Below, piece by piece: positions 11,311 through 49,761 of a stretch of DNA of 64,000 bases. This stretch comes from Saccharofermentans sp. (GTDB taxonomy: Bacteria > Bacillota > Clostridia > Saccharofermentanales > Saccharofermentanaceae): contig JAILNR010000048.1 in NCBI GenBank assembly GCA_024691325.1, forward strand, positions 62,001 through 126,000, in the 5' to 3' direction. The notes below the pieces were generated by a model. It had not been told where the DNA came from. It did no database searches and saw only the letters and a list, made by a program, of their open reading frames with translations. The translations under genes were made by a program, and so were the position numbers. The first letter of the stretch is position 1; each line of letters opens with the position of its first letter.

Positions 11311-11503
11311 TTGTATCAGAATTGTATTTTTCTGATATTGATACAAGAATTTCAGGTGATTTAATTATCAAAAATGCATTTTATTAATAGTGATACAAGG
11401 AAAATGGAAAAACCTTGTATCACTATCGATTTTTCTTATTTTTAGTAATAGAAATTGTCCGGATTCTTGTATCAAAAAACCTGTTTTGCCAAAGTGATAC
11501 AAG
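11311..11503. repeat. Cluster of six TTGTATCA/TGATACAA octamers forming three consecutive inverted repeats
   Basis: TTGTATCA at 11311, 11415, 11467; TGATACAA at 11339, 11391, 11495; includes a perfect 14-bp stem at 11387-11400/11413-11426. Confidence 0.9.
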
Positions 11504-11575
11504 ATGCTTTAATTCATGCAGTTGCCGTACTATAATATCCCTATCATTCCGTGGAACGAATGAGGGGTAGCTAAT

Positions 11576-12382
11576 ATGAAAAAAGACATTGCTTTGGAGA
11601 GCCTTAAAGAAAGGCTTGTTTTTCTTGAGAAAGTAGTCAGCGAAGCGGACAAACAATTAAAGAAATCACCGCCGGGCAGATTAAGGATTCAAAGACAGGG
11701 GAATTCTGTTGCTTATTACTGTGTACAAAACAGTAAGGAGTTCAAGGATAATAACGGACAGCGTATCGATAATAGTAACAGAAATCTGATTGCTGCATTA
11801 GCTCAGAAAAGTTATATCAACAATGTAAGAAGATACGCGGTCGCTGAAGCCAAAGCTATAAGATGGTTGTTGGACGGTTATCCTAAGAAGACGGTTGAGA
11901 GTGCTTTGGATAATATTAAAGGCGACAGACTTAAATTACTTCAGCCCGTTGCTTTGTCAGATGAGGAATATGTTAAAAAGTGGATAGCAAAGCCCTATAC
12001 GCCAAAGGGGTTTAGTGAGACTGATCCGAATTTCAAAACGCTTAAAGGTGACAGAGTAAGATCGAAGTCAGAACAGATAATAGCCGACAGATTATTCGTT
12101 AATAATGTCCCGTACAAATACGAGTGTCCGATCATGGTCGGCAACAAGCTTTTCCATCCTGATTTTACGGTATTGAAGATCAAGGAACGGAAAGTCATTT
12201 ACTGGGAGCATTGCGGAATAATGGATAAGCAAAGTTATTCTGATTATGCCGTAAACAGGTTTAACAAGTATTCAAAGCAGGGGATCATCATAGGTGATAA
12301 TCTTATTGCCACATTCGAGACGGATAACAATCCATTAGACACCGAAACTGTCGATAATCTTATAAACGCGCATTTTAAATAA
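11576..12382 (+). CDS. Uncharacterised protein with C-terminal PD-(D/E)XK-like nuclease domain
   Basis: RSKSEQIIADRLFVNNVPYKYECPIMVGNKLFHPDFTVLKIKERKVIYWEHCGIMD; conserved N-terminal PPGRLRIQRQGN...LAQKSY region. Confidence 0.7.
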   Translation: MKKDIALESLKERLVFLEKVVSEADKQLKKSPPGRLRIQRQGNSVAYYCVQNSKEFKDNNGQRIDNSNRNLIAALAQKSYINNVRRYAVAEAKAIRWLLDGYPKKTVESALDNIKGDRLKLLQPVALSDEEYVKKWIAKPYTPKGFSETDPNFKTLKGDRVRSKSEQIIADRLFVNNVPYKYECPIMVGNKLFHPDFTVLKIKERKVIYWEHCGIMDKQSYSDYAVNRFNKYSKQGIIIGDNLIATFETDNNPLDTETVDNLINAHFK

Positions 12383-12428
12383 ATAATAAGGTATAATACT
12401 CTTTAGTGCGTTAATAGGAGTATTTACT

Positions 12429-13838
12429 ATGTCTGATCTAAGACTTGATGAACTTAAAAGTAATGCAAAGGTTTACTTCGTCGGTATCGGCGGCATCTCA
12501 ATGAGCGGACTTGCGCTGCTTACCAAGGGCTACGGATTTACCGTCGGCGGTTCCGATAACCATCCGTCAGAAAGAACACAGATGCTCGCACAAAGCGGCA
12601 TCACTATATATAACAGCCAGGAAGCAAAGAATATCGATGAATTCGAGCCTGACTACATCGTCAAGACTGCAGCCATCCTTCCTCACAACAAGGAGCTTGC
12701 ACGTGCCCTCGAGAAGGGGCTTACGGTCTTCGACAGATCCGAGTTCCTGGGCATCATGACGAATACTTATAAGAACGTTATCAACATCTCGGGTACACAC
12801 GGCAAGACGACAACCACTTCCATGACATCCATGATGCTCATAGAAGCGGGACTCGATCCCACTATCCATCTCGGCGCTCCGTTCGACGGTATCGGCGGCT
12901 CGGTTAAGATGGGCGGCAACAGGGACCTTCTCGTCTCCGAAGCATGTGAATTCAAAAGATCGTTCCTCGAGTTCAGGTCCACGACGGCGGCCATCACGAA
13001 CATCGATCACGATCACGTCGACTGCTACCCTACACTTGAAGATGTTATCGATGTTTTCGCGAAGTTTATAGACAAGGTCGATGACGGCGGCTACCTCGTC
13101 GTAACCGGCTCCGACAGGAACATAAAAGAGTCCATCGCCCGCGCGAAAAAGAACATCAAGGTCATCACGTGCGCAGCCGACGGCTCCGATGCTGACTTCA
13201 AGGCTCAGAACATTAAGTACAACGACGGTCTTCCCGCATTCGACCTTGTAGCGTCAGGGCAGAAGATCGGAAGAGTTCAGCTTAGAGTTCCCGGTGCACA
13301 CAACATAAGTAATGCCCTGATCGCATCTGCGTGTGCTTACCTTAACGGAGCATCCGCCGAGGCGATAATCAAAGCTCTTAATGAGTTCGGAGGCGCTGAC
13401 GGAAGATTTACCATCAAGGGTACTTACAAGGGCTGCGAAGTTGTTGTCGATTACGCTCATCATCCGACTGCGGCAAGAGTTACGATCGATGCGGCGATGC
13501 ACATGCCTCACAACAATCTTCTTGTCGTATTCCAGCCTCTTACTTTTAACAGAGTCGATGCGCTGTTCGAAGAATATGTAACGAGCCTTCTTCCCTGCAA
13601 GAAGATACTCTTCTCCGAGATCTTCACTGACCGCGAGGTTATCCACGAAGGAATGGTCTCGAGCAGGAATATCGCGGATGAGATAAACAAACGCGGCGGC
13701 AATGCCGAATTCTATGCGGATAAGGAAGTTCTTAAAAGAAGGATCGATGAGCTCATCAATCCCGGTGACATGATCCTTATTCTCGGCCCTGAAGACATAC
13801 GCGAACTCGGCAACGAATTGTGCCCCGGTAAGGAATAA
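12429..13838 (+). CDS. murC: UDP-N-acetylmuramate--L-alanine ligase
   Basis: VYFVGIGGISMSGLALL, ISGTHGKTTTTSM, VVDYAHHPTA. Confidence 0.95.
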   Translation: MSDLRLDELKSNAKVYFVGIGGISMSGLALLTKGYGFTVGGSDNHPSERTQMLAQSGITIYNSQEAKNIDEFEPDYIVKTAAILPHNKELARALEKGLTVFDRSEFLGIMTNTYKNVINISGTHGKTTTTSMTSMMLIEAGLDPTIHLGAPFDGIGGSVKMGGNRDLLVSEACEFKRSFLEFRSTTAAITNIDHDHVDCYPTLEDVIDVFAKFIDKVDDGGYLVVTGSDRNIKESIARAKKNIKVITCAADGSDADFKAQNIKYNDGLPAFDLVASGQKIGRVQLRVPGAHNISNALIASACAYLNGASAEAIIKALNEFGGADGRFTIKGTYKGCEVVVDYAHHPTAARVTIDAAMHMPHNNLLVVFQPLTFNRVDALFEEYVTSLLPCKKILFSEIFTDREVIHEGMVSSRNIADEINKRGGNAEFYADKEVLKRRIDELINPGDMILILGPEDIRELGNELCPGKE

Positions 13839-15349
13839 TGAATAACAATAAACGGGCACCGCAAAAACCATCAGGTAAATCATCAGGCACCCCGCTCGCT
13901 CTTAAAAGAGCGCCGATTCATTTCATAGCGCTTGCCATGATGGGCGTGGTCATTCTTACGATGATCATCATGTGCCTTGTACCGGGTGCCGGCAAGAACC
14001 CAAAGAACCCGACTTTGGTCATCTACGGCGACAAGGGCAACGTCCCGAATCTTTCGCTTACGAACACTCTTCACGCGGCAGGTTTTGAATACGTTATCGC
14101 CGACTACGGAGAAGACATCTCTTCGTACGGAACCGTTGTTCTTGCAGCGATGGGGTCTGATGCACTGTCGATAATAAACGACCACAAAGACGATCCCCAT
14201 GTTGCCGGATTCATCCTCATCTGCCCCGAGTATAACGAGACTTATATGACCGGTCTTACGAGTGGTAATCCCACATGCGATATCGCGATTTTCGCAGGGC
14301 GTAATAAATGCAAAGACACGAAGGATATGAGTGCGGCGCGTGTCATTTACGAGAGGCTCTCGGGTGATGACACACTTTACGGAATCCCTGTCAAAAGAGG
14401 CGGCCTGTTCGCATCCGAGGTTTATGTAAACAATGCGCAGAACAGGATGCTGTCGCTTTCCTGCTTCAGCGTAAGAGACCCGCAGAAGCTTTTGTTCTCG
14501 CCTTTATTCCAGAATGAGCTTGCGGGATACTTAAGCGTAACTTATATCGATGAGTCAACACGCGAGGTGTCGTTCGGCCGCATTAATACATGGTTCGTTT
14601 TCTCGTGGCTTGTCATCATGTTCTCGATAGTGAGCGTGCTTTTGTTCCTGTCTAACATCAAGCTTGATGAGTCAGGCTACGATACTAAGAAAGCTCCCGT
14701 GTCGAAGTGGGTCTTCGGATTTATCGGAGGCATCTCGATAGCGGTCGCGGTAGGCATAGTTGCATCGACTTCCGTCACACAGATACTGGATGCTCTGCTG
14801 TGGATCCTGACTCTCGTTCCCACAGTATTCATGGCGTGTCTGTTTGGCATCAACTTCAAGTGGATCTACGCGAAAGAAGGTAAATTCATCCCCCGTAAAA
14901 CAAGCCTTGTGCCCACACTGTTCATATCGGTGGTGATCGGGCTCATGATCATGTTTACCCTCGCGATGACAGCAGATCTTAAGGTGCATGCGATAAAAGA
15001 CGCAGGCCTCTCGGCAGCTATACTCGGAGTTATTCTTGTCGCAGACCTTATCGTTACTACAGGACTTATCTACGCGAGCCGCAAATCGACAGTGGCAGGG
15101 CAGGGCGCGAAGAACTGCTTCGGCAACAAGAACATATTCGGACTGATGTTCATGCCATGCATAGTAGCCCTGCTCTACGGCCTTTTGCCGGGACACTCAC
15201 AGGTGTTCTACTGCGGCCTTGCGGGACTTGCCGCGACGGGCATTCCGTTCCTTGCGGTGCTCCCGATCGTAAGGCATTCAGACAGATCATTAATAGCAGG
15301 CGTTTTACATGGTATTATTTATATATTGGTTATAGCAGCGATACTCTGA
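13838..15349 (+). CDS. Uncharacterised multi-TM membrane protein
   Basis: One N-terminal TM, about 200-aa soluble domain, then C-terminal TM cluster; stop/start overlap with murC. Confidence 0.7.
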   Translation: MNNNKRAPQKPSGKSSGTPLALKRAPIHFIALAMMGVVILTMIIMCLVPGAGKNPKNPTLVIYGDKGNVPNLSLTNTLHAAGFEYVIADYGEDISSYGTVVLAAMGSDALSIINDHKDDPHVAGFILICPEYNETYMTGLTSGNPTCDIAIFAGRNKCKDTKDMSAARVIYERLSGDDTLYGIPVKRGGLFASEVYVNNAQNRMLSLSCFSVRDPQKLLFSPLFQNELAGYLSVTYIDESTREVSFGRINTWFVFSWLVIMFSIVSVLLFLSNIKLDESGYDTKKAPVSKWVFGFIGGISIAVAVGIVASTSVTQILDALLWILTLVPTVFMACLFGINFKWIYAKEGKFIPRKTSLVPTLFISVVIGLMIMFTLAMTADLKVHAIKDAGLSAAILGVILVADLIVTTGLIYASRKSTVAGQGAKNCFGNKNIFGLMFMPCIVALLYGLLPGHSQVFYCGLAGLAATGIPFLAVLPIVRHSDRSLIAGVLHGIIYILVIAAIL

Positions 15350-15371
15350 CAGGGGATAAGGGGGAGTCAAC

Positions 15372-18300
15372 GTGATCAACTACTACAACGCATTCATCTC
15401 ATACAGACATGCACCGCTCGACTCGAAGGTTGCCGAGCATGTGCAAAGAAGTCTCGAGAGGTTCCACATACCTCACAGCATCCGTAAGAAGACGGGTGTT
15501 AAGAAGATCGAGAGGATCTTCAGAGACAAGGACGAGCTTCCTATTACGAGTGATCTTACGGAGACGATCTCGAATGCGCTTGAGAAGGCTGACTACCTGA
15601 TCGTTATCTGCTCTCCTAACACCAAGGAGTCCGCGTGGGTTCAAAGGGAGATCGAATACTTCCTTAAAAACCATACCAAGAAGCAGATCCTGACTGTCCT
15701 TGCAGACGGCGAGCCTCAGGATGTTATCCCGGAGATCCTGACCTACGAGGAGCATGATGTCTCGGAATTCTGGAAAGAAGCGCAGAAGGTAAAGATCCCG
15801 ATTGAGCCTTTGTCCTGCGACTACAGGATGCCCCTTCGAAAAGCAAAGAAAGAGGAAATCCCGAGACTCGCGTCGGCCCTCATCGGCTGCTCCTACGACG
15901 AACTCGTAAGACGCCAGAGAGCGTACAGGGTAAAGCAGGGAATCGCGATCGGTGCTGCCATCGTTGCTGCCTCACTGGGACTGACTTTCTATACTTGGCA
16001 AAGCAAGAAGAAGGTTGATGATGCACTTAATGAGTCTCTTGCAAACCGTGCGAGATATCTTGCCAATCAGTCTATCTCGATGCTCGATGAAAACAGACGT
16101 ATCGATGCACTTTATCTTGCCATGTCAGCTGTTCCTCAGGGCGAGGACGATGCCACGCCTCTTGTTCCTGAAGCTGTCAGCGCTCTTGCACAGGCCACGC
16201 TTGCTTACCGGTCATTGAACGGAAACAGCATTGATACCGTTTGGAATTACAGTCTCGGAAGTACGATAAAATGTATCGAGATAAGTCCGGAAGGAACCCA
16301 CCTTGCCGCACTTGATACAAGCGGTTCTCTAACTGTTTGGAATACTGAGACGCACGATATGCTTTTTAATATCCACAGCGTCACATCCGACAACGCTGTT
16401 TCGATTAAGTTTATAGATGATTCAAAGCTGGTAGTCCGCGATTACGCCAGGCTCTTATGCTACGATGCTGACACGGGTGAGGTCGAATGGGTCTTCGAAC
16501 CGAATAATGGTAACTTCATTGTTGATGATCCTGTTCTTTGTTCTGACGGATCTTTAGTATTAGTTGATCATGACGGAGCTATCTTCTGTCTTGATGCAGG
16601 TTCCGGAAGTGTAAGATCCCAGTACCAGATTCCTAATGATGACCTGGATGTCATGGTAACTCCGAACGCTTTCGCCGTGTCCCCTGATGAGACCAGGGTT
16701 GCCATACTTATCGAGGTAGGCGTAGATGAATACTATGTGGTCATTTACGATATGACTACAGGCAGAACGAGTCAGTCTCAGAGCGTGGAAGGTCTTGAAA
16801 AAGCGATGACATGGTCGGACGATGACCACCTTGTTGTTGCTGCTATGGAGATGAACAGCGACAATGTGAACAATGCCATGTTTAACGGTTCATTTATCAT
16901 GGGTCATGATGTGAACTATGTAACCTGCTTCGCAGGCGACAGTGCCAATATAGTATGGTCACAGGAACAGGTTGCCACAAATGTCGGTTTCAGTTCCGGC
17001 TTTATTGTTCTTCCTGCTACAGAAATGATCGCATATTACAGTGCCAATGTCTGTTGTGCTTATGACATCGATGACGGAACTGTCCGCTATGAATGGAATA
17101 CCAATGATTCGATCATCGATGTAAGTGACAGAGACGGAAACGGCTGGCCCATCATGATAACCAAAGGGGGCGGACTTGTCTCTGTTTGTCCGACTATGGC
17201 TATAGATGTTATAGATGTAACCTACGAGTTCACGGATAATCTTGCTGATGCGGTAGTTAATCACGGAGTATATACGTATCAGAATTCCGGTTCCCAGATC
17301 TTCTACTACAATGTGCATGTTTGTGACGAAGAATGGGAGTATATCGGCGATCTCGATTCGAGTGCACCCAAAAGTTATATGGCCGACGAAGCTCTTATTC
17401 TCCTTGAGCCTTGTTCTGCGGGAACTGATGTTACGGTAGTCGATCCTGTCGAAGGCGAGGTAAGGTTCAGCGTAAACTTAGGTTCGGCTTATTATTCAGA
17501 TTACAATGTTATTGGAGTTTTTGACGGAAAAGCCTACATCACTTACGGCGAAGTTCTGGAAGGATTGGAATTATTAGAACTTAATCTTACGACCGGAAGG
17601 ATCTCATCGGATCATATATCTGATTCGTACTATATTTCCGAGTTTGCAGCTTCAATGACGAATGAATTTGTTACCTGTATTGACAGAAGCGATGTGACAG
17701 ACAGAGCTGTTATTTACAATGTGATTTCTCACCGTACTGATGAATACGATATAGAGAACGGTCTTAATCTTACATACGCACCTCAATACTTCGAAGATAT
17801 CGGCATAATCTATATCGCAAGTGAAGGCGAAGACGCGATCGTGTTTACCGAGACAGACGATTATATGCAGGTTGAACTGCCTGAGTCCTGGTATAACACG
17901 GAAATCGTTGAGTTTGACGCTGAATCAAGAAGAATAATGATATCTGACAGACGATCCATTCTCTTCCTCGATGAATTAGGAGAAGAAGATCTTGTTATCT
18001 CCTGCGGCGGAAGGACCATTACAGGTTACACACTACTTCACGGAGAACAGTACGGTGAAGGCGGCCTGTTGCTCGTATCGTGCAGTGACGGATCTTTGCT
18101 GAGGTATGATGCCCTTTCGGGTGAGTTCCTCGGAAACACGGAGATCTCCTACTACACCAACTATATTCCCACTGCGGAATTCGTGTTGGATGAGCAGGCC
18201 GGTATCATGTACATACAGCAGTATATGATTACCAGTATTGTAGATCTCGAGTCGTGGATCGAACTGACATACATCGAGAATTCATTCGGTCACAATGCGC

Positions 18301-18458
18301 AGTCCGACAGATTCTTCACATTATCATATACCGAGGGTGACGAACCTCAGCTAGGATACTTCAGACACTATACCGTCGAGGAGTTGCTGGCGAAGGCTAA
18401 CGAGATCTTAGGCGGAATGCCTGTCCCTGAAGATCTTCGTGCAATGTACGGATTATAA
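15372..18458 (+). CDS. TIR domain - TM - beta-propeller (WD40/PQQ-like) protein
   Basis: NAFISYRHAPLDSKVAEHVQRSLE...IFRDKDELP...ADYLIVICSPNTKESAWVQREIEYF; TM at about aa 195-211; repeated propeller-type blades to C-terminus; GTG start. Confidence 0.8.
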   Translation: MINYYNAFISYRHAPLDSKVAEHVQRSLERFHIPHSIRKKTGVKKIERIFRDKDELPITSDLTETISNALEKADYLIVICSPNTKESAWVQREIEYFLKNHTKKQILTVLADGEPQDVIPEILTYEEHDVSEFWKEAQKVKIPIEPLSCDYRMPLRKAKKEEIPRLASALIGCSYDELVRRQRAYRVKQGIAIGAAIVAASLGLTFYTWQSKKKVDDALNESLANRARYLANQSISMLDENRRIDALYLAMSAVPQGEDDATPLVPEAVSALAQATLAYRSLNGNSIDTVWNYSLGSTIKCIEISPEGTHLAALDTSGSLTVWNTETHDMLFNIHSVTSDNAVSIKFIDDSKLVVRDYARLLCYDADTGEVEWVFEPNNGNFIVDDPVLCSDGSLVLVDHDGAIFCLDAGSGSVRSQYQIPNDDLDVMVTPNAFAVSPDETRVAILIEVGVDEYYVVIYDMTTGRTSQSQSVEGLEKAMTWSDDDHLVVAAMEMNSDNVNNAMFNGSFIMGHDVNYVTCFAGDSANIVWSQEQVATNVGFSSGFIVLPATEMIAYYSANVCCAYDIDDGTVRYEWNTNDSIIDVSDRDGNGWPIMITKGGGLVSVCPTMAIDVIDVTYEFTDNLADAVVNHGVYTYQNSGSQIFYYNVHVCDEEWEYIGDLDSSAPKSYMADEALILLEPCSAGTDVTVVDPVEGEVRFSVNLGSAYYSDYNVIGVFDGKAYITYGEVLEGLELLELNLTTGRISSDHISDSYYISEFAASMTNEFVTCIDRSDVTDRAVIYNVISHRTDEYDIENGLNLTYAPQYFEDIGIIYIASEGEDAIVFTETDDYMQVELPESWYNTEIVEFDAESRRIMISDRRSILFLDELGEEDLVISCGGRTITGYTLLHGEQYGEGGLLLVSCSDGSLLRYDALSGEFLGNTEISYYTNYIPTAEFVLDEQAGIMYIQQYMITSIVDLESWIELTYIENSFGHNAQSDRFFTLSYTEGDEPQLGYFRHYTVEELLAKANEILGGMPVPEDLRAMYGL

Positions 18459-19955
18459 AAGTCCCGGAATATTACTTGACGGTCTGTAAAGTTCATTAAA
18501 CAGATGTCCCGCAATGATATATATATCGTGCGGGTCATCGTCTCTTACGGCGATATAATCACCGATGTTGCCGGAGTAATATTTCTCATCATCCCATGCT
18601 GTAAACAGCTTGATCGGATGATCGAGAGGCAAAGCAAATATCCTCGTCGTTCCCGCAGGGCTGATTACAGTCTTTGCAAAGGGCATTACTTTCTTAACTT
18701 CTTCTGTATCAAGATTCTTGACCGAAGGCTCGTACTCGAACACACCATGGAAATCAAAACCCGTAAGCTGGTAGCTGCTCATGAGCTTGTCAAGATTGAT
18801 AGGGTAGATCTCACCTTCGATGCCTATCATGAGGTAGGTCTGATCCGTGATGATGATGTTAACATCGCCCTCGAGTGTTCTGATCTCAACAGGGGTTCCG
18901 ATGGGGAAGACATCGGCAAGGCTGATGGCGCCGAGCTTCTGTTCCTTCTTGGTGTATGCCTTCATCTTTGAAGTGTCGAGGTATGTGTTGGCAGCGTAGA
19001 TGATCTCGTATGTGCCGTAGTAATCACGGATGCGCTGCTCGATAAGTTCAGTCGCGGGAAGGTCGATCTTCTCGGGACGGATCGTGCCGCCTGCCTTAAC
19101 GATGTGGCCGCCTCCTCCGCCGATGCCGTCAGCTATAAACTCGGCAAGCTCGTTCGCATGTATCTCCTTGGTACTCGACCTTACAGAGAACTTGATCTCG
19201 ACAGGACTTATATAGTAGGCAACGCACACATCGACCTCTGCCGTCTCTATCGCGAAATCACTAACAACGCCTAAGATGTTAGGGTCGTTGGTCTCGGTCT
19301 TGATGATGAGGCATCTTAAGTCCTCGTGATACTCATAGTCGAAGATGGCCTTACCCGTTATTTTCAATTCCTCAAGCGAGATGTTCGAGTTGCTCATCTT
19401 GGTTATAAGAGACTTGTTGATGATAAGAGTATCGACCATATCCCTGTCGAGAGGGTGAGAGACCTCAGTTAATTTATTAGTATCAGTATATAAACCATAG
19501 AAAAGAGCCGTCGCGAGGTTCTTGTTCTCGTTAACGTCGTAGCCTTCCTTGCGGAGCATATCCCAGATGACCGTCGAGCACGAACCGATATTGGATCTGA
19601 CTTCTGACAGTCTCGGAAGTTCAACTGTTATCTGATGGTGATCGATGACCGCGATATTACGCGCTTCCGTCTTTGTGACATTTCGCTGGCCGTACTGGCA
19701 GTCGCAGGTGATAAGAAGCTGCGGCGATCTGTCAAAGTCGGGAGCATACTCGACCGGAATGCCGAGCTCTTCTATCATTATGTTAAGGTTGCTCTTCTTT
19801 ACAGGGTGGTTGCCTCTGTAGATGAAGGTTGATTCTTTTCCCTTCGACTTAAGAAACTCATAAATCGCAAATCCTGAAGCCAATGCATCGGCATCGGGGT
19901 TATCATGACACTGTATAACAATGTCCTGGTACTTAGCTAACTCTGATAGAAGCAT
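18453..19955 (-). CDS. DHH-family phosphoesterase (NrnA-like)
   Basis: IVIQCHDNPDADALASGFAIYEFL, AVIDHHQ, GIGGGGGHIVKAGGTI. Confidence 0.85.
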   Translation of the reverse strand: MLLSELAKYQDIVIQCHDNPDADALASGFAIYEFLKSKGKESTFIYRGNHPVKKSNLNIMIEELGIPVEYAPDFDRSPQLLITCDCQYGQRNVTKTEARNIAVIDHHQITVELPRLSEVRSNIGSCSTVIWDMLRKEGYDVNENKNLATALFYGLYTDTNKLTEVSHPLDRDMVDTLIINKSLITKMSNSNISLEELKITGKAIFDYEYHEDLRCLIIKTETNDPNILGVVSDFAIETAEVDVCVAYYISPVEIKFSVRSSTKEIHANELAEFIADGIGGGGGHIVKAGGTIRPEKIDLPATELIEQRIRDYYGTYEIIYAANTYLDTSKMKAYTKKEQKLGAISLADVFPIGTPVEIRTLEGDVNIIITDQTYLMIGIEGEIYPINLDKLMSSYQLTGFDFHGVFEYEPSVKNLDTEEVKKVMPFAKTVISPAGTTRIFALPLDHPIKLFTAWDDEKYYSGNIGDYIAVRDDDPHDIYIIAGHLFNELYRPSSNIPGLL

Positions 19956-20028
19956 ATAGAACTCTCCCGCAAGTAGATAAAGTTATTTTAACATCTTTTT
20001 GATGTCATATATATAAATAAAAGAAGAA

Positions 20029-20057
20029 TTGACACTTCAAAACAATGATGATATTAT
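20029..20057 (+). promoter_or_regulatory. Sigma-A-type promoter for the rplU operon
   Basis: TTGACA (20029-20034), 17-bp spacer, TATTAT (20052-20057). Confidence 0.65.
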
Positions 20058-20169
20058 ACCTCGGTGACCGCATGCGACGGGCTTTTAAATTTGCGTTTTT
20101 TTGAGGTAAATCAAGACTTCGCAGTGCCTTGGATGAAGCAGCGAGACTGGAAGAACAGGAGGACACAGT

Positions 20170-20472
20170 ATGTACGCAGTTATTAAGACAGGCGGCAAGC
20201 AGTACAAGGTTGCTGTCGGAGACGAGATCTTTGTTGAGAAGCTCGCAGGCGAGACCGGTGAAGCAGTTACTTTCGATGAAGTATTGGCTGTAGGCGGTGA
20301 TGACGGTATCAAGGCTGGCGCAGATGCAAAGGCTAAGGTAACGGGCGAGATCGTTAAGCAGGGCAAGAACAAGAAGATCGTTGTTCTTAAGTACAAGGCA
20401 AAGAAGGGCTACAGAAGAAAGAACGGCCACAGACAGCCTTATACAAGAGTACGTATTACAGGCATCGCTTAA
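20170..20472 (+). CDS. rplU: 50S ribosomal protein L21
   Basis: [25 protein letters not shown]...[26 protein letters not shown]. Confidence 0.97.
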
Positions 20473-20485
20473 TAGCAGCTTCGTA

Positions 20486-20857
20486 ATGATTACCGTCAGA
20501 GTCGTCAGAGACCAGAACCGTAAGGTCACAGGGCTGTTCGTTAACGGACACTCGGGATACGCCGAAGCGGGGTCCGACATAATCTGTGCAGGAGCGTCGA
20601 CACTCGTTTATACACTTGCTAATTCTCTTGAGAGAATATGCGGGATAGACACAGAGTATTCGACCAGGATCGCAGAGGATATGGGAGACGGCAATGTAAG
20701 CGCCGAGATAATCATACCGGATGGAAGATTCCGTGATGAGGGGGCGGCAGACAGAGCACAGGTGATAATGGAGACTATAGTTTTGGGATTCATCTCACTC
20801 GCCGAGTCAGCAAACCGGGACGGTAATAAGTACATTAACATCATTGAGGAAATTTGA
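20486..20857 (+). CDS. prp: Ribosomal-processing cysteine protease Prp
   Basis: [18 protein letters not shown] motif; located between rplU and rpmA; ATG at 20486 preferred over the longer ORF. Confidence 0.9.
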
Positions 20858-41629: not shown

Positions 41630-41700
41630 AGCCGCCGGGTGTTTTGACGTGTGGTAGAATATACATACTTAATAAGTACTCTTTGCAGGAGGATATCTCT

Positions 41701-42072
41701 ATGGCATGTTTTCTGGTACCGGCAGCTGAGGCTGTTGTAACGACGATTATCTCGAAGGCTATCGATAAGAAGGATCAAAGTGTTGATACAAGCCGTTTCA
41801 CACACAAAATCAAGTGGCTTAACAATATGCTGTGGGGAGGCTCAGCGCTTCTTGCATTTGAGCATCTGTGGCACGGTGAGATCGTACCGTGGTTCCCGTT
41901 CCTGACAGCTGCAGGCAATCCTGAAGATATGGCGGAGGTTATCCACGAGATGAGTACCGTCGGTGTCACGATGGCGATACTTGTCACGGCGGTCTGGGCA
42001 GGCATGGTCATTGTGACGAACATGATCGAGAAGAAGGCTGTATCTCCGGCTTTGAAAGTTGAGGAGGGCTGA
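41701..42072 (+). CDS. Small membrane protein in lar operon
   Basis: MACFLVPAAEAVVTTIISKAIDKK; TM segments with His/Trp (FEHLWHGEIVPWFPF); RBS aggagg; ATG at 41701 preferred. Confidence 0.75.
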   Translation: MACFLVPAAEAVVTTIISKAIDKKDQSVDTSRFTHKIKWLNNMLWGGSALLAFEHLWHGEIVPWFPFLTAAGNPEDMAEVIHEMSTVGVTMAILVTAVWAGMVIVTNMIEKKAVSPALKVEEG

Positions 42073-42074
42073 CC

Positions 42075-42389
42075 ATGACTTTGCTTATCACTGTTTTTGC
42101 TGCGGTCATCTCAACTGTTATCTGGTATAAGAACGCGCCTCAGAGCGAGATGCGGATCGGCACTCTTGCACTTATGTACTGGGGTGCTTCGATCATGTGG
42201 TTTGTTGATGCCATTTATGAGTTTATTGAATTGAGAGATGAGTTTTTCGCGCCGGCTGGAGCTGATATGTTAAACGACACTTTCTTAGGACTGTCTGTAG
42301 TTGCGCTCGGCCTTGTTATCTGGCTTGTCATCATCCTCATCAAGGACCCCAAGGGTGTAGTGGCTGCCGCACTTAAAAAGAATTCATGA
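42075..42389 (+). CDS. Small membrane protein in lar operon
   Basis: Three TM segments; MYWGASIMWFVDAIYEFIEL; 2-bp gap from preceding gene, overlaps larB. Confidence 0.75.
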   Translation: MTLLITVFAAVISTVIWYKNAPQSEMRIGTLALMYWGASIMWFVDAIYEFIELRDEFFAPAGADMLNDTFLGLSVVALGLVIWLVIILIKDPKGVVAAALKKNS

Positions 42390-43141
42390 GTAACGACGCG
42401 CGCAAGATCTTAGAACAGGTTAAGGACGGTTCGCTGACGGTTGAAGACGCGCTTTTGAGGCTTAAGACTGAGCCGTTCGAGGACATTGGTTTTGCGAAGG
42501 TGGATCTTCACCGGCAGGTGCGCCAGGGGATGGCGGAAGTCATTTACGGCGCAGGCAAAACTCCCTCGCAGATAACAGGGATCATCGACACGATGAAGAA
42601 GAACGGCCAGGAGCGCATCCTTATCACGCGCCTGTCGCCCGAGTCTGCTAAGAGCGTCGCTGAAGCCCACGCTATCACATATAAAGAAGACGCGCGGATC
42701 GGGTACATTGGCACTCCGCCCGCTCCTGACGGTATCGGTACTGTCGTGGTCGCAACGGGCGGCACGAGTGACATCCCGGTCGCCGAGGAGGCGGCACTTA
42801 CGGCTGAGTTCTACGGCAATAAAGTTACGCGTTTGTACGACGTCGGTGTCGCAGGTTTGCACCGGCTTTTATCCCATAATGAAGACATAATGAATGCGAG
42901 CGTCATCATAGCGATCGCGGGTATGGAGGGCGCTCTTGCAAGTGTCGTCGGCGGTCTTGCGGACTGCCCGGTTATCGCGGTGCCTACGAGCGTCGGTTAC
43001 GGTGCTTCATTCGGCGGCATCTCGGCGCTTTTGTCGATGCTCAATTCCTGCGCGAGCGGCGTGTCGGTCGTCAACATCGATAACGGCTTCGGAGCGGGGT
43101 ATCTCGCGAGCATGATCAATCACATGGAGGCTAAGTCATGA
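42386..43141 (+). CDS. larB: Nickel-pincer cofactor biosynthesis protein LarB
   Basis: AIR-carboxylase-like VVVATGGTSDIPVAEEAALTAEFYGNKVTRLYDVGVAGLHRLL; AGMEGALASVVGGL; VPTSVGYGASFGG. Confidence 0.92.
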   Translation: MSNDARKILEQVKDGSLTVEDALLRLKTEPFEDIGFAKVDLHRQVRQGMAEVIYGAGKTPSQITGIIDTMKKNGQERILITRLSPESAKSVAEAHAITYKEDARIGYIGTPPAPDGIGTVVVATGGTSDIPVAEEAALTAEFYGNKVTRLYDVGVAGLHRLLSHNEDIMNASVIIAIAGMEGALASVVGGLADCPVIAVPTSVGYGASFGGISALLSMLNSCASGVSVVNIDNGFGAGYLASMINHMEAKS

Positions 43142-44367
43142 AGACACTTTACATAGACTGCGGCATGGGCGCTGCAGGCGATATGCTCACGGCGGCTTTG
43201 CTCGAGCTGCTGCCGGACCGCGGCGCGTTTGTCGATAAGCTTAATTCCCTGGGAATTCCGGGCGTCACCTACTCTCTCGAAAAGTCGGTCAAGTGCGGCA
43301 TCACAGGCTCGCACATGACAGTTAAAGTAAATGGCGGGGAAGAGAGCGAGGAGATGCATGAGCATGAGCATCATGACCACGGGCATGAGGGTGAGCATCA
43401 TCATCATCACCACAGCGGGATGGATGATATACAAAGTATCGTATCTTCTTTAAAGATCCCGACGATGTTAAAACTCGAGATCCTCGCAGTTTATAAACTC
43501 ATCGCCGAGGCGGAGAGTCATGTTCACGGCGTGCCTGTCGAACAGATACATTTTCATGAAGTAGGATCGATGGATGCGGTCGCCGATATCACGGCGGTCT
43601 GTATGCTCATGGATGAGATCGATCCTGATGAGGTGGTCGTATCGCCGGTTCATGTCGGAAGCGGTACGGTCAAATGTGCGCACGGCGTATTGCCGGTCCC
43701 CGCGCCCGCGACGGCACATATCTTGAAAGACATTCCCATCTACAGCCACGGCATTGAAGGAGAGCTGTGCACCCCGACGGGCGCGGCGCTGCTTAAACAT
43801 TACGCTACGCGATTCGGTGATATGCCCGTCATGAAGACAAGTGCGATCGGATATGGAATGGGCAAGAAGGATTTTGAAATTGCCAACTGTGTACGCGTTA
43901 TGACAGGTGACAGGGAAACTGATGATTCTTCTGATAAGTCCGGTGAATCGGGTATCTTTGAACTCTCATGCAATGTCGATGACATGACCGCTGAAGACAT
44001 CGCGTTTGCCTGCGAGAAGATACTTGAAGAAGGTGCGCGCGAAGTTTATACGATACCAATCGGCATGAAGAAATCGCGCCCCGGGACTTTGATCCGTGTC
44101 ATGTGTACCGCTTCCGAGCGTGAGAAGATGGCGGGCCTTATATTTAAGTACACGACGACCATCGGAATACGTGAGATAGAGACAAATCGATATGTTCTTG
44201 AGCGCAGGATCGAGACCGTCGACACGAAGTTCGGTCCCGTCCGCCGCAAGGTCTCAACGGGCTACGGCGTCACGCGTATGAAGTACGAGTATGACGACAT
44301 CGCACGCATCGCCCGCGAGAATAATCTGACGCCGGGCGAAGTGCGCAGACAGATAGAAGATGCATAA
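43138..44367 (+). CDS. larC: Nickel insertion protein LarC (single continuous ORF) with His-rich linker
   Basis: LYIDCGMGAAGDMLTAALLELL; HEHEHHDHGHEGEHHHHHH; HFHEVGSMDAVADI; ELSCNVDDMTAEDIAF. Confidence 0.93.
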   Translation: MKTLYIDCGMGAAGDMLTAALLELLPDRGAFVDKLNSLGIPGVTYSLEKSVKCGITGSHMTVKVNGGEESEEMHEHEHHDHGHEGEHHHHHHSGMDDIQSIVSSLKIPTMLKLEILAVYKLIAEAESHVHGVPVEQIHFHEVGSMDAVADITAVCMLMDEIDPDEVVVSPVHVGSGTVKCAHGVLPVPAPATAHILKDIPIYSHGIEGELCTPTGAALLKHYATRFGDMPVMKTSAIGYGMGKKDFEIANCVRVMTGDRETDDSSDKSGESGIFELSCNVDDMTAEDIAFACEKILEEGAREVYTIPIGMKKSRPGTLIRVMCTASEREKMAGLIFKYTTTIGIREIETNRYVLERRIETVDTKFGPVRRKVSTGYGVTRMKYEYDDIARIARENNLTPGEVRRQIEDA

Positions 44368-45166
44368 TAAGAAACAAAAGCTCGAACAGATCTTAAGACA
44401 GATGGGAAGCGTTCTAGTCGCTTTCTCATCCGGCGTTGATTCGACATTCCTTCTTAAAGTTGCCCACGATGTGTTAGGTGATAATGCGGCCGCTGTAATT
44501 GCGAAGTCGTGCCTTATCCCGCCGCGTGATATCGATGAGGCAGTTTCGTTTTGTAGTGAGCAGGGGATAAAGCTCATCATACTTGACTACGATCCTTTAA
44601 CTGTTGAAGGCTTTGCCGCAAACCTGAAGGAGCGCTGCTATATTTGTAAGAAGTCGCTTTTCGAGAAGGTGGTGAAAAAGGCGCAGGAACTTGGAGTCAG
44701 CGCTGTCGTAGAGGGCTCGAATGAGGACGACAAGGGTGACTACCGCCCCGGAATGCGCGCGATAAAAGAGCTTAATATCAGAAGTCCGCTTCAGGAGGCG
44801 GGGCTAACAAAAAGTGAGATAAGGCATCTGTCGCGCGAGCTTGATCTTCCCACGTGGGATAAGCCTTCGTTCGCATGTCTGGCGTCGCGCATCCCTTATG
44901 GCGACGAGATCAATTTGGTCAAGCTTAAGATGGTCGATGATGCCGAGGCAGTTCTTCTCGGCGAAGGCTTTAAGCAGTTTCGTGTCCGCGTGCACGGGAA
45001 TGACGCGCGCATAGAATTACTCCCCTGCGACTTTAATAAAATGCTTGAGGAAGGGACGCGCAGCCGCGTTAATACAAAGCTTAAGGAAATCGGTTTCCGA
45101 TATGTGTCGCTCGACCTTCAGGGCTACCGCACCGGCAGCTTGAACGAGGGTGTGGCGGCAGATTAA
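44360..45166 (+). CDS. larE: ATP-dependent sacrificial sulfur transferase LarE
   Basis: VLVAFSSGVDSTFLLKVAHDVLG; RCYICKKSLF; VEGSNEDDKGDYRPGMRA; SPLQEAGLTKSEIR. Confidence 0.93.
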   Translation: MHNKKQKLEQILRQMGSVLVAFSSGVDSTFLLKVAHDVLGDNAAAVIAKSCLIPPRDIDEAVSFCSEQGIKLIILDYDPLTVEGFAANLKERCYICKKSLFEKVVKKAQELGVSAVVEGSNEDDKGDYRPGMRAIKELNIRSPLQEAGLTKSEIRHLSRELDLPTWDKPSFACLASRIPYGDEINLVKLKMVDDAEAVLLGEGFKQFRVRVHGNDARIELLPCDFNKMLEEGTRSRVNTKLKEIGFRYVSLDLQGYRTGSLNEGVAAD

Positions 45167-45507
45167 AGGCGCGGCTTAAAAAGAGGAATGTCGACGTCCG
45201 GCAGCTCGCCGTAAATGTCCTCGTTCTCGTTGATCCTCAAAGCCTCGGGAGCCTTGCTGTTATCGGGTTCGAACGGGTTCTCGTTGTATGCATGAACGAA
45301 AGCTTTGGCGGACTCCAAAGAAATGTCGATCTTCTCGGCTTGAAGTCTGATCCCGCCCGTGGGGCTGTAATCGTAAAGCTTGCCGTAGGTGTCGCCTATG
45401 TTGTTCGACTTATCAAGAAGATGTCCTATAAGGAACGTGACCAGGCTTCCCACGAACACAAGCGAGAACAAGATATAGATAATATAGTAAACATAAACGA
45501 TCCACAT
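45163..45507 (-). CDS. Uncharacterised protein with N-terminal TM
   Basis: 114-aa ORF between larE and the zinc-ribbon gene, same strand as 45516-46703. Confidence 0.6.
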   Translation of the reverse strand: MWIVYVYYIIYILFSLVFVGSLVTFLIGHLLDKSNNIGDTYGKLYDYSPTGGIRLQAEKIDISLESAKAFVHAYNENPFEPDNSKAPEALRINENEDIYGELPDVDIPLFKPRL

Positions 45508-45515
45508 AATTATGC

Positions 45516-46703
45516 CTACCTTTTCCTGACGTAAAGGAACGTCGAACTCGATTGCGTGTCACGCAGATTTCTTATAATGCGCCTAAGTTTCCTGGTTGCT
45601 ATCGTGAGCATTGCAATTCCGAATGTCATTGAGAATGACACCATCAGAGGAAAGACCGCCACAATCTCATCAAAGCGAAGTCCGATAACCGGATAAAGAG
45701 CAATGCCCGCAAGAAGCAGGAAAAGCGGCACCGCGATCGCAGCAACCTTAGCCTTGTTAAAAGGTATCGTGCCGATGGTCTTGCCGGTCTGTCCGTTAAC
45801 AAGAATAGTGTTCGGCTTGCCCTTGTATGTGCAGGTGTAAAACCATACCGGCAGCATAAGATAGATCGCGTCATCATCGATGTTGACATAGGGGTGTGAC
45901 TCCGTGACACTCAAGTTCTGTGCTTTAAGGTCCTTGATAGCCTCCTCGGAGAACATGTCGTCACAGCGCTTTAAAACTGCGGCGCGAAGGTCGGAAGGCG
46001 ACATGTCTGAAGTGTCAGAATAGAATCCGCTCAAGTAGTCTTCATCAAAGTCTTTAACGTCGTCGTAGAAGTAAGGCTCGAGCCTCTTTGCCATGTTATC
46101 GTTAAGCCTCAGGGAAGCGTCACAAGGAAGCAGCTCAAACCTGGCGCTTCCAGCCCTCGCGAAATAAGTGGTCCTCGTATTCTTTCCGCTCTTTACACTG
46201 CCTTTGATAACGACAGAGTCGTACAGATCGCAATTAACGATCCAATAGGGGACATAAATGCCTCTTATGTTATCGAGGCTTTGATTCTTGATCTGCTTAG
46301 GAATGAAGGAACCTCTGTTAAGATGCGCCTTGATAAGCTTCTTCGCTTCTTCTTCTGTAACGGAGAATGGCAGTATACCATCGGGCCTTCTCTCGTTCGC
46401 AACGCGGCTGAACACAACGGTCGGATTGCCGCAGTAAACGCAGAACGTGGAAGACTCGGAACCGTTGATAACGATGTCACCGCCGCAGTGGCTGCATGTG
46501 TAGATCTTAACCTCGTAGTCAGAAGGCTTGCGTGTGCCGTGAATATCAGCGAGTGTCTTGCCGTCATCTTGTGCGAGCAGATCCTTACCGAGAGCCGATA
46601 CGTCCTCGGGTTTAAACGTGGACCCGCATATCTTGCAGGTCATCCTATGTAATGATGGTGAATAAACAAGTGCGCCGCCGCAGTTGTTGCATAAAGTCGC
46701 CAT
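45516..46703 (-). CDS. Zinc-ribbon (TFIIB-like) membrane protein
   Basis: CNNCGGALVYSPSLHRMTCKICGS; CSHCGGDIVINGSESSTFCVYCGN; C-terminal TM pair. Confidence 0.75.
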   Translation of the reverse strand: MATLCNNCGGALVYSPSLHRMTCKICGSTFKPEDVSALGKDLLAQDDGKTLADIHGTRKPSDYEVKIYTCSHCGGDIVINGSESSTFCVYCGNPTVVFSRVANERRPDGILPFSVTEEEAKKLIKAHLNRGSFIPKQIKNQSLDNIRGIYVPYWIVNCDLYDSVVIKGSVKSGKNTRTTYFARAGSARFELLPCDASLRLNDNMAKRLEPYFYDDVKDFDEDYLSGFYSDTSDMSPSDLRAAVLKRCDDMFSEEAIKDLKAQNLSVTESHPYVNIDDDAIYLMLPVWFYTCTYKGKPNTILVNGQTGKTIGTIPFNKAKVAAIAVPLFLLLAGIALYPVIGLRFDEIVAVFPLMVSFSMTFGIAMLTIATRKLRRIIRNLRDTQSSSTFLYVRKR

Positions 46704-46742
46704 ATACTCCTCCCTGATTCCAATGTATTATACCATCTTAAA

Positions 46743-46771
46743 TGCAACTTAAGCACCGGCATGTGCAACTT
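46743..46771. promoter_or_regulatory. TGCAACTT direct repeats, 21 bp apart (candidate LytTR sites)
   Basis: TGCAACTT at 46743 and 46764 upstream of hydrolase-LytTR-DUF3021 operon. Confidence 0.5.
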
Positions 46772-46852
46772 GTGCATAAACGCCGCCGCGCCCCGTTTGT
46801 CTTTGCTATAGTGGCATCATCAAAAGCAAAACACGAAGGGGAATTTACGAAA

Positions 46853-47818
46853 ATGAAAAAGGCAGTTAAAGGTTTGATCATAGCAGCAGGAGTAATCACC
46901 ACACTCGCAGTCGGCGGATCGATAGTATTGGGAGGCGTCATCGCAGATAAGATCCTCCACCAGAATGATGGTAAGGATACAGTTGACAACAGTTTAAAGC
47001 AGCTCGAACTTTGGGGATACGATATCGATTCATTCAACAATAACTATAGTGGTGTTGAAGTAAGTGCGCCGGCGGCTGACGGGAATGTGGTGCCGGGGAC
47101 GCTTTTCGAGGAGGGAAGTGACATGTGTGCGGTGCTCGTGCACGGTGCGGGCGGTGACCGCGTGAGCATTTATCCGCTTGCCGAGCAGTACCTGATGAGG
47201 GGTTACGATGTCATCGCAATCGACCAGAGAGGCTGCGGCGCGAATCCTGATGACCGCGTCACGTTCGGTATCAATGAGAGCCTTGATGTGGCGGCGATGG
47301 TGGAGTACGCGAGAACCGAATTGGGTTACGGCAAGGTTATCGTTCACGGTCAGTCGATGGGTGCGCAGACGGCTGTTGTTTATGCAGCGAATGTGGAGCG
47401 CGGTGCTGCTGATGCTGCGGATGCCGTTATCTGCGATTCGCCCGTGCCCGGCATGGAGCTTATGCTGCGCCTGATGTTCGGCGAGAGCGTCGAGAATGCT
47501 TACTCACCCGTTACCAATTACCTTATCGGAACATCGAAGTCTTTCATGAAGGTTTTTGACCGCATCGATTACGATGATGCAGATACGATCGCACTTGCAT
47601 CCGAGATCGATATTCCCGTGATGATCGTGCTGTCAGAGCGCGATGAGGTTTGTCTGCCCGAGTATGTGCAGCAGGTTTATGATAATATTTCTGTTGACGA
47701 GAGAGCAATCTATTATGCTGACAGCGAGCACATCGAAGGCGTGATTGATGATCCTGAAGGATACATGACAAGTGTTGAGAACTTCCTCTCGTCGGTGGGA
47801 GTTAATAATGAAACTTAA
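46853..47818 (+). CDS. Alpha/beta hydrolase, membrane-anchored
   Basis: VLVHGAGGDRVSIYPLAEQY; VIVHGQSMGAQTAV (GxSxG); ATG at 46853 with RBS. Confidence 0.85.
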   Translation: MKKAVKGLIIAAGVITTLAVGGSIVLGGVIADKILHQNDGKDTVDNSLKQLELWGYDIDSFNNNYSGVEVSAPAADGNVVPGTLFEEGSDMCAVLVHGAGGDRVSIYPLAEQYLMRGYDVIAIDQRGCGANPDDRVTFGINESLDVAAMVEYARTELGYGKVIVHGQSMGAQTAVVYAANVERGAADAADAVICDSPVPGMELMLRLMFGESVENAYSPVTNYLIGTSKSFMKVFDRIDYDDADTIALASEIDIPVMIVLSERDEVCLPEYVQQVYDNISVDERAIYYADSEHIEGVIDDPEGYMTSVENFLSSVGVNNET

Positions 47819-48278
47819 TCTTTATGAGAACAAGAATGATATGAACGAACACGTGGACGTATATTACTCGAATATGCGCCCCGTTATCCGTCAGCTGATT
47901 GACACGGTAAATTCAGAGAGGCCTTCTCTTTCCGGGCGGCCCGCAGATGAGGATCTTGATGACGGTGATGAAGTGCTTCTCGACCCGCGCAACATCTATT
48001 ATCTTGATCACGTTGAACGCAAGTTATTCGCGTACACGAAGGACGGGGTGTACCGCGTGATGAATACTCTTGCGGTGTGCGAAGAGATGCTGTGGAACTA
48101 TGGGTTCGTGCGCGTGTCGAAGTCGAATCTTGTTAACATCTACAAGATCGTGCAGCTTAAGCCCGATCTTAACATGAAGGTGTACGCGTCGTTTGATAAC
48201 GGCGAGAGGATCTGCATAAACAGAAGCTATAAGAAAAGCTTCAGTGACTATCTTCAGAAGATGAGGGGGATGGTGTAA
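47808..48278 (+). CDS. LytTR-domain DNA-binding regulator
   Basis: NIYYLDHVERKLFAYTKDGVYRVMNTLAVCEEMLWNYGFVRVSKSNLVNIYKIVQLKPDLNMK. Confidence 0.9.
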   Translation: MKLNLYENKNDMNEHVDVYYSNMRPVIRQLIDTVNSERPSLSGRPADEDLDDGDEVLLDPRNIYYLDHVERKLFAYTKDGVYRVMNTLAVCEEMLWNYGFVRVSKSNLVNIYKIVQLKPDLNMKVYASFDNGERICINRSYKKSFSDYLQKMRGMV

Positions 48279-48703
48279 TGAGTACAAATGTTAAAGAATA
48301 TCTGCTCGAGCTTTGCTGCTCATACACGGTCGTCTCGGTCTTGGGAGCTGTTGTCAATATTCTTGTTGGCGGACAGACGAATAATATCAATGTGCTTGTC
48401 ATGTTCAGTTTTTGCGCGATCATAGTTTTTGTCTTGTCGCTTCACCGATTGTTTGATGCTGTCAGCCCGCTTGTCATGATCATCGTACAGTATCTGGTCG
48501 CCTGCGGAGTGTGCGCGTTGCTGGTTCTTGTATTGAGTATTCTTATCGAGCCCGTCACGCCGCGCGGCTGGTTCGAATTCTGGCGCTCATTCACGATTCC
48601 CTACATCATCGGAGCCGGTTACTACTACTACCGCGTCTTCTCCGATGCGAAGAAGCAGAACGAGCTGATCAATGAGCTCCGGGAGAAGCGGGGAGAAATG
48701 TAA
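48278..48703 (+). CDS. DUF3021 membrane protein
   Basis: Four TM segments directly downstream of LytTR gene, TAATG overlap. Confidence 0.8.
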   Translation: MSTNVKEYLLELCCSYTVVSVLGAVVNILVGGQTNNINVLVMFSFCAIIVFVLSLHRLFDAVSPLVMIIVQYLVACGVCALLVLVLSILIEPVTPRGWFEFWRSFTIPYIIGAGYYYYRVFSDAKKQNELINELREKRGEM

Positions 48704-48856
48704 ACTTTTTAAGTGGGATTTTTTGACCAAAAATGCGAAGTGCCGTGGTTATTGGCTTTGAAGGGTGATGCATCCGATGAGAGTACTATTAATAGCACTG
48801 AAAATCGGGACGGATTTTTGTTGATATTTGTTGTGTGACCGCTGTAAAGTGGTTAT

Positions 48857-49678
48857 ATGAATAAGGGAACAATATCAGTAGAGTTTTATGTAGGAAGATA
48901 CATCTATCTGAGTGGACTGCTCAGTACTATTCCTGATGTGCGTTTTGGCGGACGCGGGAGCAGAGAATCAATTTCTGTATATACGGTTAATAACAAAACC
49001 GGGCAGCGCGACAGACTTAGGATTACAAATACATCGCCAAAGTGGGATCACTATTATGAACTTGCGGTGCGGCGCGAAAGAGTTAAGGAACAATTGAATC
49101 TTTTACTATCGAGCTGGAGCGAGGATTATAAGGGTTCTCTTGCGAAGATATCGTCAGAGTACATAATTATCCCCAATGATGTTAACCGTTATGACTGCGA
49201 TTGTTGGAACCTCTTTAAGAGTAATGATTGCGATGTTCAGAATAAGTATCCTGTTCGATACAAAGATTTTATAATGCGGTCTTATTTTGAAGTGGAAGTA
49301 GCAAAGGTTCTCGACAGTCTGGGCATTGATTATAAGTATGAGGTCAGACTGCCGATCGGAGGCGGTGATGAGATCAGCCCTGATATGGCTGTTAATCTGC
49401 CCGAGTATAACCGCTGCGGATTTGTTGAGGCTCTGGGCGGACTTGATAGTTTGAAGTATGTTTCTCACAACACTTGGAAGCTTAAGGGATATATAAACTG
49501 CGGATTGTATCCCAATCGCGACGTTGCTTTGGTCAGTGCTGATTCAAAGGTTGTTCCGACCCGCGATATGATCAAACGGATGATTGGCACAATGCTGAGT
49601 TATATAGCTTCGCAGTATGTGATGAAGAAGAGTTTGTTTAATAGCGTATGTGTGGACAGTTATGTGGACAGTTTTTAA
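48857..49678 (+). CDS. Uncharacterised protein with PD-(D/E)XK-like core
   Basis: MRSYFEVEVAKVLDSLGIDYKYEVRLPIGGGDEISPDMAVNLPEYNRCGFVEALGGLDSLKY; aligns by eye with C-terminal domain of 11576-12382. Confidence 0.6.
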   Translation: MNKGTISVEFYVGRYIYLSGLLSTIPDVRFGGRGSRESISVYTVNNKTGQRDRLRITNTSPKWDHYYELAVRRERVKEQLNLLLSSWSEDYKGSLAKISSEYIIIPNDVNRYDCDCWNLFKSNDCDVQNKYPVRYKDFIMRSYFEVEVAKVLDSLGIDYKYEVRLPIGGGDEISPDMAVNLPEYNRCGFVEALGGLDSLKYVSHNTWKLKGYINCGLYPNRDVALVSADSKVVPTRDMIKRMIGTMLSYIASQYVMKKSLFNSVCVDSYVDSF

Positions 49679-49761
49679 AAAAGTCCACAGAATTGTCCAT
49701 ACAAGCCTTAAATGGACAGAAGTGTGGACAATTTCTGAAAAAGTCCACAAAACTGTCCATA
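49651..49761. repeat. Two 51-bp units in direct repeat (60-bp period), each an inverted repeat of paired TRTGGAC half-sites
   Basis: Units 49651-49701 and 49711-49761; 39-bp cores at 49663-49701 and 49723-49761 match 34/39, all five differences transitions. Confidence 0.9.

Follow-up and report, generated by a model that had tools for sequence, protein, structure and literature searches.

Two genes, here called A and B, in a 64,000-nucleotide stretch of Saccharofermentans sp. DNA (the window; NCBI GenBank assembly GCA_024691325.1, contig JAILNR010000048.1, positions 62,001 to 126,000) encode members of one nuclease-like protein family, and each adjoins an array of short sites with a motif of its own. 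A preliminary description of the window had paired the two loci. We find that such arrays accompany the family well beyond this genome, that their sites are spaced by whole turns of the DNA helix, and that arrays without a gene are dispersed in several genomes; the last two observations go beyond what had been described. We lean narrowly towards reading protein and array as a repeat-nuclease genetic system, in which a private array would be bound by its cognate nuclease and nuclease activity would promote the spread of the array.

Two genes of one protein family

The features of the two loci, in window coordinates, are as follows.

11310-11503, no strand assigned: array of gene A, with CTTGTATCA/TGATACAAG sites at 11310-11318 (-), 11339-11347 (+), 11391-11399 (+), 11414-11422 (-), 11466-11474 (-) and 11495-11503 (+)
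11531-11536, plus strand: likely -10 element (TATAAT) of gene A, a putative promoter about 30 bp 3′ of the last array site
11576-12382, plus strand: open reading frame (ORF) A, 268 amino acids (aa); an N-terminal helix, three-stranded sheet and long helix, then a C-terminal PD-(D/E)XK nuclease domain
11576-11890, plus strand: N-terminal domain of A (residues 1-105, from AlphaFold secondary structure), a presumed DNA-binding domain
12071-12208, plus strand: active-site residues of A, E166 (12071-12073), D196 (12161-12163) and E211 (12206-12208), invariant or nearly so in 219 relatives
48857-49678, plus strand: ORF B, 273 aa; predicted domain order as in A (helix, three strands, helix, PD-(D/E)XK)
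49289-49429, plus strand: active-site residues of B, E145 (49289-49291), D176 (49382-49384) and E191 (49427-49429)
49652-49760, no strand assigned: array of gene B, eight 7-bp sites, GTGGACA-type at 49652, 49664, 49712 and 49724 and TGTCCAY-type at 49682, 49694, 49742 and 49754

Both ORFs are intact. As first described, both loci are chromosomal, their 143-kb contig also carrying housekeeping genes, and both stand alone: no methylase or toxin-antitoxin partner was seen beside either gene, nor any ORF for a TnsB, TnsC or DDE partner.

The proteins are only 19% identical, and BLASTP aligns them over the nuclease core with E = 0.015. Profile comparison is decisive and, at the level of sequence, places A and B in one superfamily. 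The score is 54.8 bits for A against the B profile and 21.9 bits for B against the A profile, and all 140 relatives fetched from whole genomes match both profiles (71 A-type and 69 B-type, according to which profile scores best). The motifs on which the two loci had been paired by eye are present in both proteins and run through the family: E-x2-G-x2-D-x3-Y (EHCGIMDKQSY in A, EALGGLDSLKY in B), PD[FM]-x-V, Y-K-Y-E and R/K-x-N/K-x-Y-x3-G. In an alignment of 219 relatives, E166, D196, E211 and G214 (A numbering) are conserved in 149-150 of 150 A-type and in 69 of 69 B-type proteins, and the acidic E...D...E residues lie on the predicted core as in the PD-(D/E)XK superfamily.

AlphaFold models of A (pLDDT = 95) and B (pLDDT = 80) both run helix, three strands, helix, then a PD-(D/E)XK-type domain. 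Read from secondary structure, the N-terminal part would resemble small sheet-type DNA-binding domains, a likeness that Foldseek did not confirm. The best structure and sequence matches fall on the nuclease half (a phage homing endonuclease, R2, DrdV and PADLOC PDC-S68); Foldseek matches to restriction-like folds in the PDB are individually weak.

Genomes of the Saccharofermentans type can carry as many as 13 or more copies of the family, which also reaches Lachnospiraceae and other groups. Carriage by viruses or plasmids was rejected: we found nine weak matches to viral contigs, all without arrays, and no full-length plasmid match. One short phage-like contig holds a nearly full-length match at 28%. 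Neither A nor B matches a Pfam or NCBIfam family, and the open-access literature searched yielded no account of the family or of its arrays, although an earlier description elsewhere is possible. As far as tested the family is undescribed, in agreement with the initial impression that no named system has this layout.

Arrays of private, helically phased sites

The array of gene A follows the stop of a Na+/H+ antiporter-like gene and precedes the likely A promoter, whose TATAAT is kept in an alignment of three orthologues (the window's and those of genomes G014 and G012). Its six TTGTATCA/TGATACAA copies (11311-11502) are separated by gaps of 28, 52, 24, 52 and 28, giving a paired arrangement with 52-bp spacings, and none of 200 dinucleotide shuffles reached six copies. 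The array of gene B sits between convergent genes, its first two sites overlapping the 3′ end of ORF B; its [GA]TGGACA/TGTCCA[CT] sites are strictly alternating in spacing (gaps 12, 18, 12, 18, 12, 18, 12), and its chance probability is about 0.01 in a strict 8-mer test with dinucleotide shuffles. The clusters had been called unrelated but similarly organised. They do exist, but they are not unrelated designs, both consisting of 7-9 bp sites in both orientations. Isolated 8-mer sites occur at the expected frequency in 461 kb of the window's own genome (G000; z = -0.2 and +0.2). A restriction enzyme acting on single sites was rejected on this normal frequency; we recognised neither the site avoidance of type II restriction nor an adjacent methylase gene.

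Across the family we took, in the 350 nt to each side of the gene, the 8-mer with the highest copy number (both strands counted), required at least 4 exact copies, and used as controls pieces of similar length further out in the same loci. Arrays were found at 74 of 140 loci (41/71 A-type, 33/69 B-type), or in 77 of 277 flanks, compared with 1 of 262 control pieces (Fisher p about 6e-24 at the flank level, a value in which shared ancestry of the loci overstates independence). The motifs differ from locus to locus, amounting to 70 distinct 8-mers. A second set of 80 loci from named contigs, which partly overlaps the first, gave 40 loci with at least 4 copies against 8 of 313 control pieces; it covers Saccharofermentans, Ruminococcaceae, Lachnospiraceae, Butyrivibrio, Eisenbergiella, and one metagenome-assembled genome (MAG) each of Treponema and Fibrobacter. 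The enrichment of repeats near homologues, which had been proposed as a check, is borne out in other bacterial families as well. Of the two outcomes named beforehand as refuting the link between the loci, a lack of profile similarity between the proteins and a lack of repeat enrichment, neither was observed.

Sites occur in both orientations. In 93 mixed-orientation arrays the distances between sites of the same orientation peak at 49-53, 59-65 and 71-75 bp, with longer distances near 104, 126, 148 and 157 bp and none at 54-58 or 66-70 bp. The peaks at about 52, 63 and 74 bp correspond to 5, 6 and 7 turns of B-DNA, and the longer distances are their sums. Some arrays contain direct repeats only (L071, L053). 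The whole-turn spacing together with these direct-only arrays points to proteins on one face of double-stranded DNA rather than to RNA hairpins; judged by their layout, the arrays look like double-stranded protein-binding arrays, with binding predicted. An RNA-hairpin or type III toxin-antitoxin reading was rejected on the same two features. Type III systems have tandem direct repeats upstream of the toxin that are transcribed as an antitoxin RNA, whereas the sites here are phased, in both orientations and up- or downstream.

The preliminary description placed the repeats upstream in one locus and downstream in the other, which is correct for the window (upstream of A, downstream of B); within the family the side varies. 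A-type arrays are upstream in 68 and downstream in 9 of 77 cases, and B-type arrays are evenly divided (17 downstream, 17 upstream). An autonomous array-gene-array transposon as the general form was rejected because the motif stands on both sides of the gene in only four loci (L208, L138, L134 and L030). In one of these, L208 from a Reindeer Lachnospiraceae MAG, the nuclease gene lies between long CCTATGCC arrays of 10 and 12 copies with period 63, making it the best candidate for such an element. Very long arrays, with 13 or more AACCGTAC sites against 10 in the dispersed form, were seen at a nuclease gene (L202) and at L324 (G099:C6).

Motif similarity tracks protein similarity (Mantel p < 0.005).

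Arrays without a gene and differences between genomes

The motif of array A recurs in G000 outside the window, 71.7 kb from the window start (G000:C42:133753-133944; L260:7753-7944). This solo array has four 52-bp units with the geometry of the A array and different spacers, and no family gene lies in the stretch. It stands upstream of a macrodomain gene, with promoter-like sequence, and an ADP-ribosylglycohydrolase-like ORF follows. Among 59 genomes of the genus, most of the genomes compared being MAGs, the TTGTATCA pair pattern is present only in G000 and G014 (two places each; 0 in 57 others). Reversed-pattern controls gave zero counts throughout all solo-array searches. A different, array-like cluster, AAATGTAC(GTA) in both orientations with gaps of 32, 30 and 20, lies further along in G000 (L260:14177-14266; G000:C42:140177-140266); the 17-kb stretch around it contains no gene of the family.

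In genome G005 the TCGATACA motif of locus L115 forms 42 pairs in about 17 places, of which the nuclease locus is one; G020 and G055 have a single pair each, and 56 other genomes have none. These elements are mirror-symmetric, typically of eight sites with gaps of 31, 22, 31, 20, 31, 22 and 31, and are bounded by inverted sites; the nuclease-linked array of G005 has identical geometry. Most end in the array site itself, the 196-bp elements in inverted sites, and the dispersed copies lie mostly between long ORFs. The TAGTCTGA motif of the B-type locus L010 forms 29 pairs in G044, and AACCGTAC forms 22 pairs in one Eisenbergiella MAG and 15 in another, where sequence-similar copies of about 500 bp occur at different places and share flanks of about 90-120 bp. 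In being short, dispersed and gene-less, with inverted sites at the ends in G005, the 196-bp elements of G005 and the ~500-bp Eisenbergiella copies resemble miniature inverted-repeat transposable elements (MITEs).

Clusters of mixed orientation were also sought in an unbiased scan. G005 yielded 12 over 400 kb, several of them spaced by 51/52 or 73 bp; G000 yielded 4 over 461 kb, and the family-negative genome G061 yielded 2, both irregular, over 400 kb.

Several arrays of these genomes have features of their own. Two solo 73-bp (seven-turn) arrays of G005 (L361:9492-9674 and L362:1041-1224) carry the motif AGTACGTAA; at a distance of 5 kb, a family gene has a 73/74-bp array whose motif, AAATTACG, is different but overlaps theirs. 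Four other G005 solo arrays (L296, L303, L304, L311) begin shortly 3′ of a hairpin and T-run resembling an intrinsic terminator, and an insertion preference after terminator-like hairpins is possible in this genome. The Eisenbergiella elements (L324-L343; G099, G100) have additional outer ends, GTTACTTTTCATGGGGCGGG..., which are in part inverted between the two sides and which the nuclease-linked array lacks; these are possibly a second mobility layer.

The A cassette is itself variably present. It lies between the antiporter and murC genes in G014 and G012 as in the window, and in G030 and six further species the antiporter is directly beside murC with the cassette absent; the G030 murC is 89% identical to that of the window, as close as that of G014. 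One Eisenbergiella element is likewise absent from the orthologous site of a sister MAG, with flanks 88 and 86% identical and an inexact boundary. Where the cassette is shared, its sites have changed together: at clear sites CTTGTATCA of G000 and G014 is replaced by CTTGTACTC in G012, with the register kept and the spacers poorly conserved. From the sequences compared, this coordinated switch is the outcome that protein-site coevolution would be expected to produce.

Interpretation and comparison with known systems

In the repeat-nuclease system that we narrowly favour, each protein, with its N-terminal DNA-binding domain and C-terminal PD-(D/E)XK nuclease, would recognise its own private 7-9 bp site. 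Since the sites lie on one helix face, 5, 6 or 7 turns apart, several protein molecules could assemble on phased sites into one nucleoprotein complex. The spreading unit would be the array, usually about 200-500 bp and found as gene-less, MITE-like intergenic copies. Most likely, the assembled nuclease would nick or cut at or near array ends, and this would promote the copying of arrays, rarely also of a gene-plus-array cassette, to further intergenic positions, whether through transposition or through break-driven gene conversion. The gene itself would be mostly vertically inherited, and joint change of motif and protein would keep the paralogous systems of one genome insulated. Protein and sites together behave as if they were a selfish or domesticated genetic system.

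Several points weigh against this account. Binding, cooperative assembly, cutting, movement and nuclease-driven spread are steps that we infer. The canonical PD-(D/E)XK lysine is absent (E-H-C-G / E-F-L-G), the position two residues after the second acidic residue being C, L, F or M and not K; the nearest conserved basic residues, K164 (in A) and K/R181 of the first strand, may from their positions replace it, and catalysis is putative. By the strict test, 26 of 140 loci have repeats at background level only, and gene-flanking arrays on both sides are confined to the four loci listed above. Tracking of the repeat sequence by the variable N-terminal region had been suggested as a test; that region tracks the motif no better than the C-terminal domain does (partial correlations N|C 0.12, C|N 0.12), and these equal values do not favour specificity residing solely in the N-terminal domain. 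In 461 kb of G000 we found the B motif of the window in no solo array. The sister site of the Eisenbergiella element holds about 70 unrelated bases and no clean target-site duplication, so that deletion is as possible as insertion, and where G014 has one of its solo arrays, G000 retains a single site; each such case could be a gain or a loss.

The best-surviving alternative, unlikely in our estimate, is a DNA-binding regulator or chromosome organiser. The array would be an operator or anchor upstream of the gene's own promoter and the solo arrays would serve other genes, with a vestigial or rarely used nuclease fold and rapid motif change preventing cross-regulation between paralogues. What makes it serious is the position of A-type arrays, mostly upstream (68:9) and, in the window, immediately ahead of a conserved promoter; the solo array before the macrodomain gene and its promoter-like sequence fit as well, and whole-turn phasing suits cooperative binding. 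However, an E-D-E set invariant in 219 proteins is unexpected in a vestigial nuclease, B-type arrays show no preferred side and that of the window lies between convergent genes, and the Eisenbergiella solo elements are sequence-similar copies at many places, which indicates spread.

A defence or toxin system is improbable. Here the nuclease would act against foreign DNA, or against the host once released, with the array titrating, regulating or marking it. The C-terminal domain of A does share its family with the C-terminal end of the PADLOC candidate defence proteins PDC-S68 (2e-24), and copy number and sequence diversity are high, but single sites are not avoided by the host, the window loci have no methylase, antitoxin or other partner gene, and private motifs and dispersed arrays would be left unexplained. 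The phage challenge suggested earlier implied such a role, which finds no support here. Slightly more doubtful again is the view of the arrays as ordinary MITEs that owe their movement to an unrelated DDE transposase, with the nuclease merely a neighbour of one copy or exploiting it as a homing-type endonuclease. The partly inverted outer ends of the Eisenbergiella elements, missing from the nuclease-linked array, suit this idea, as does the annotation of the closest viral fold match of A as a homing endonuclease; against it, arrays go with the nuclease family in many species and with about 70 different 8-mers, and what is conserved is site number and phasing rather than ends, most G005 elements ending in an array site. 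That the loci are unrelated and the repeats random, by chance or assembly artefact, has nothing beyond the low A/B identity in its favour and is refuted by the profile match, the control-based enrichment and the zero-count pattern controls.

By analogy, the organisation comes closest to REPIN-RAYT systems, in which REP-associated tyrosine transposases accompany dispersed hairpin doublets (PMC3116915, PMC8049555). As there, a distinct gene lies beside one cluster of private repeats, dispersed intergenic repeats without a gene match those at the gene, several pairs occupy one genome, and inheritance is at least partly vertical. Unlike the RAYT tyrosine (HUH) transposase, however, the enzyme is of the PD-(D/E)XK type: an HUH-like tripeptide occurs in 3 of 220 family proteins and the fold differs. 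The inverted hairpin doublet is likewise missing, the unit here being 4-16 double-strand sites at whole turns, including direct-only arrays.

Other systems share the nuclease and little of the layout. PDC-S68 has the same nuclease domain subfamily at the end of a protein of ~1200 aa (with ATPase/helicase annotations in plasmid relatives), unlike the 265-aa stand-alone protein here with its DNA-binding-type N terminus and site array. Vsr-like and phage homing endonucleases and the restriction-like endonuclease of the R2 retrotransposon share the nuclease fold (Foldseek 6e-5 to a Bacillus phage homing endonuclease and, for B, 3e-3 to R2), but there is no convincing full-length match and no intron, intein or retroelement context; homing enzymes are not known to have a multi-site array beside their own gene. 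TnsA of Tn7-like elements is also a PD-(D/E)XK nuclease, and those elements carry several short sites, but here the partner genes are missing at the window loci, usually one array lies beside one gene, and the Pfam TnsA model matches 1 of 68 members (E 0.04). Rpn proteins (recombination-promoting nucleases) are widespread nucleases with variable parts, at one time believed to be tied to recombination or transposition and now described as toxin-antitoxin defence proteins whose C-terminal antitoxin is translated separately (PMC10327210), a description that makes no mention of site arrays; no such Pfam model matches here.

Because every molecular part differs from REPIN-RAYT, we rate the system as categorically new; by a looser reckoning, in which any repeat with a dedicated nuclease is one kind, it would be a variant of that kind. 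Our tentative proposal is that these are bacterial mobile or drive-like elements of a new class. A stand-alone PD-(D/E)XK nuclease would assemble on arrays of phased private sites and copy them, and fast coevolution of motif and protein would give many mutually insulated systems per genome in rumen and gut Clostridia. If so, bacteria would have a second, independent solution to the role of REPIN-RAYT, with another nuclease fold and with phased double-stranded arrays in place of hairpins, and a large group of genes that now lack annotation in rumen and gut Clostridia would be accounted for. The dozens of nuclease-motif pairs, and orthologous arrays with jointly changed sites, are a natural record of change in protein-DNA specificity, and because the predicted target of each protein adjoins its gene, the link between the two is directly testable.

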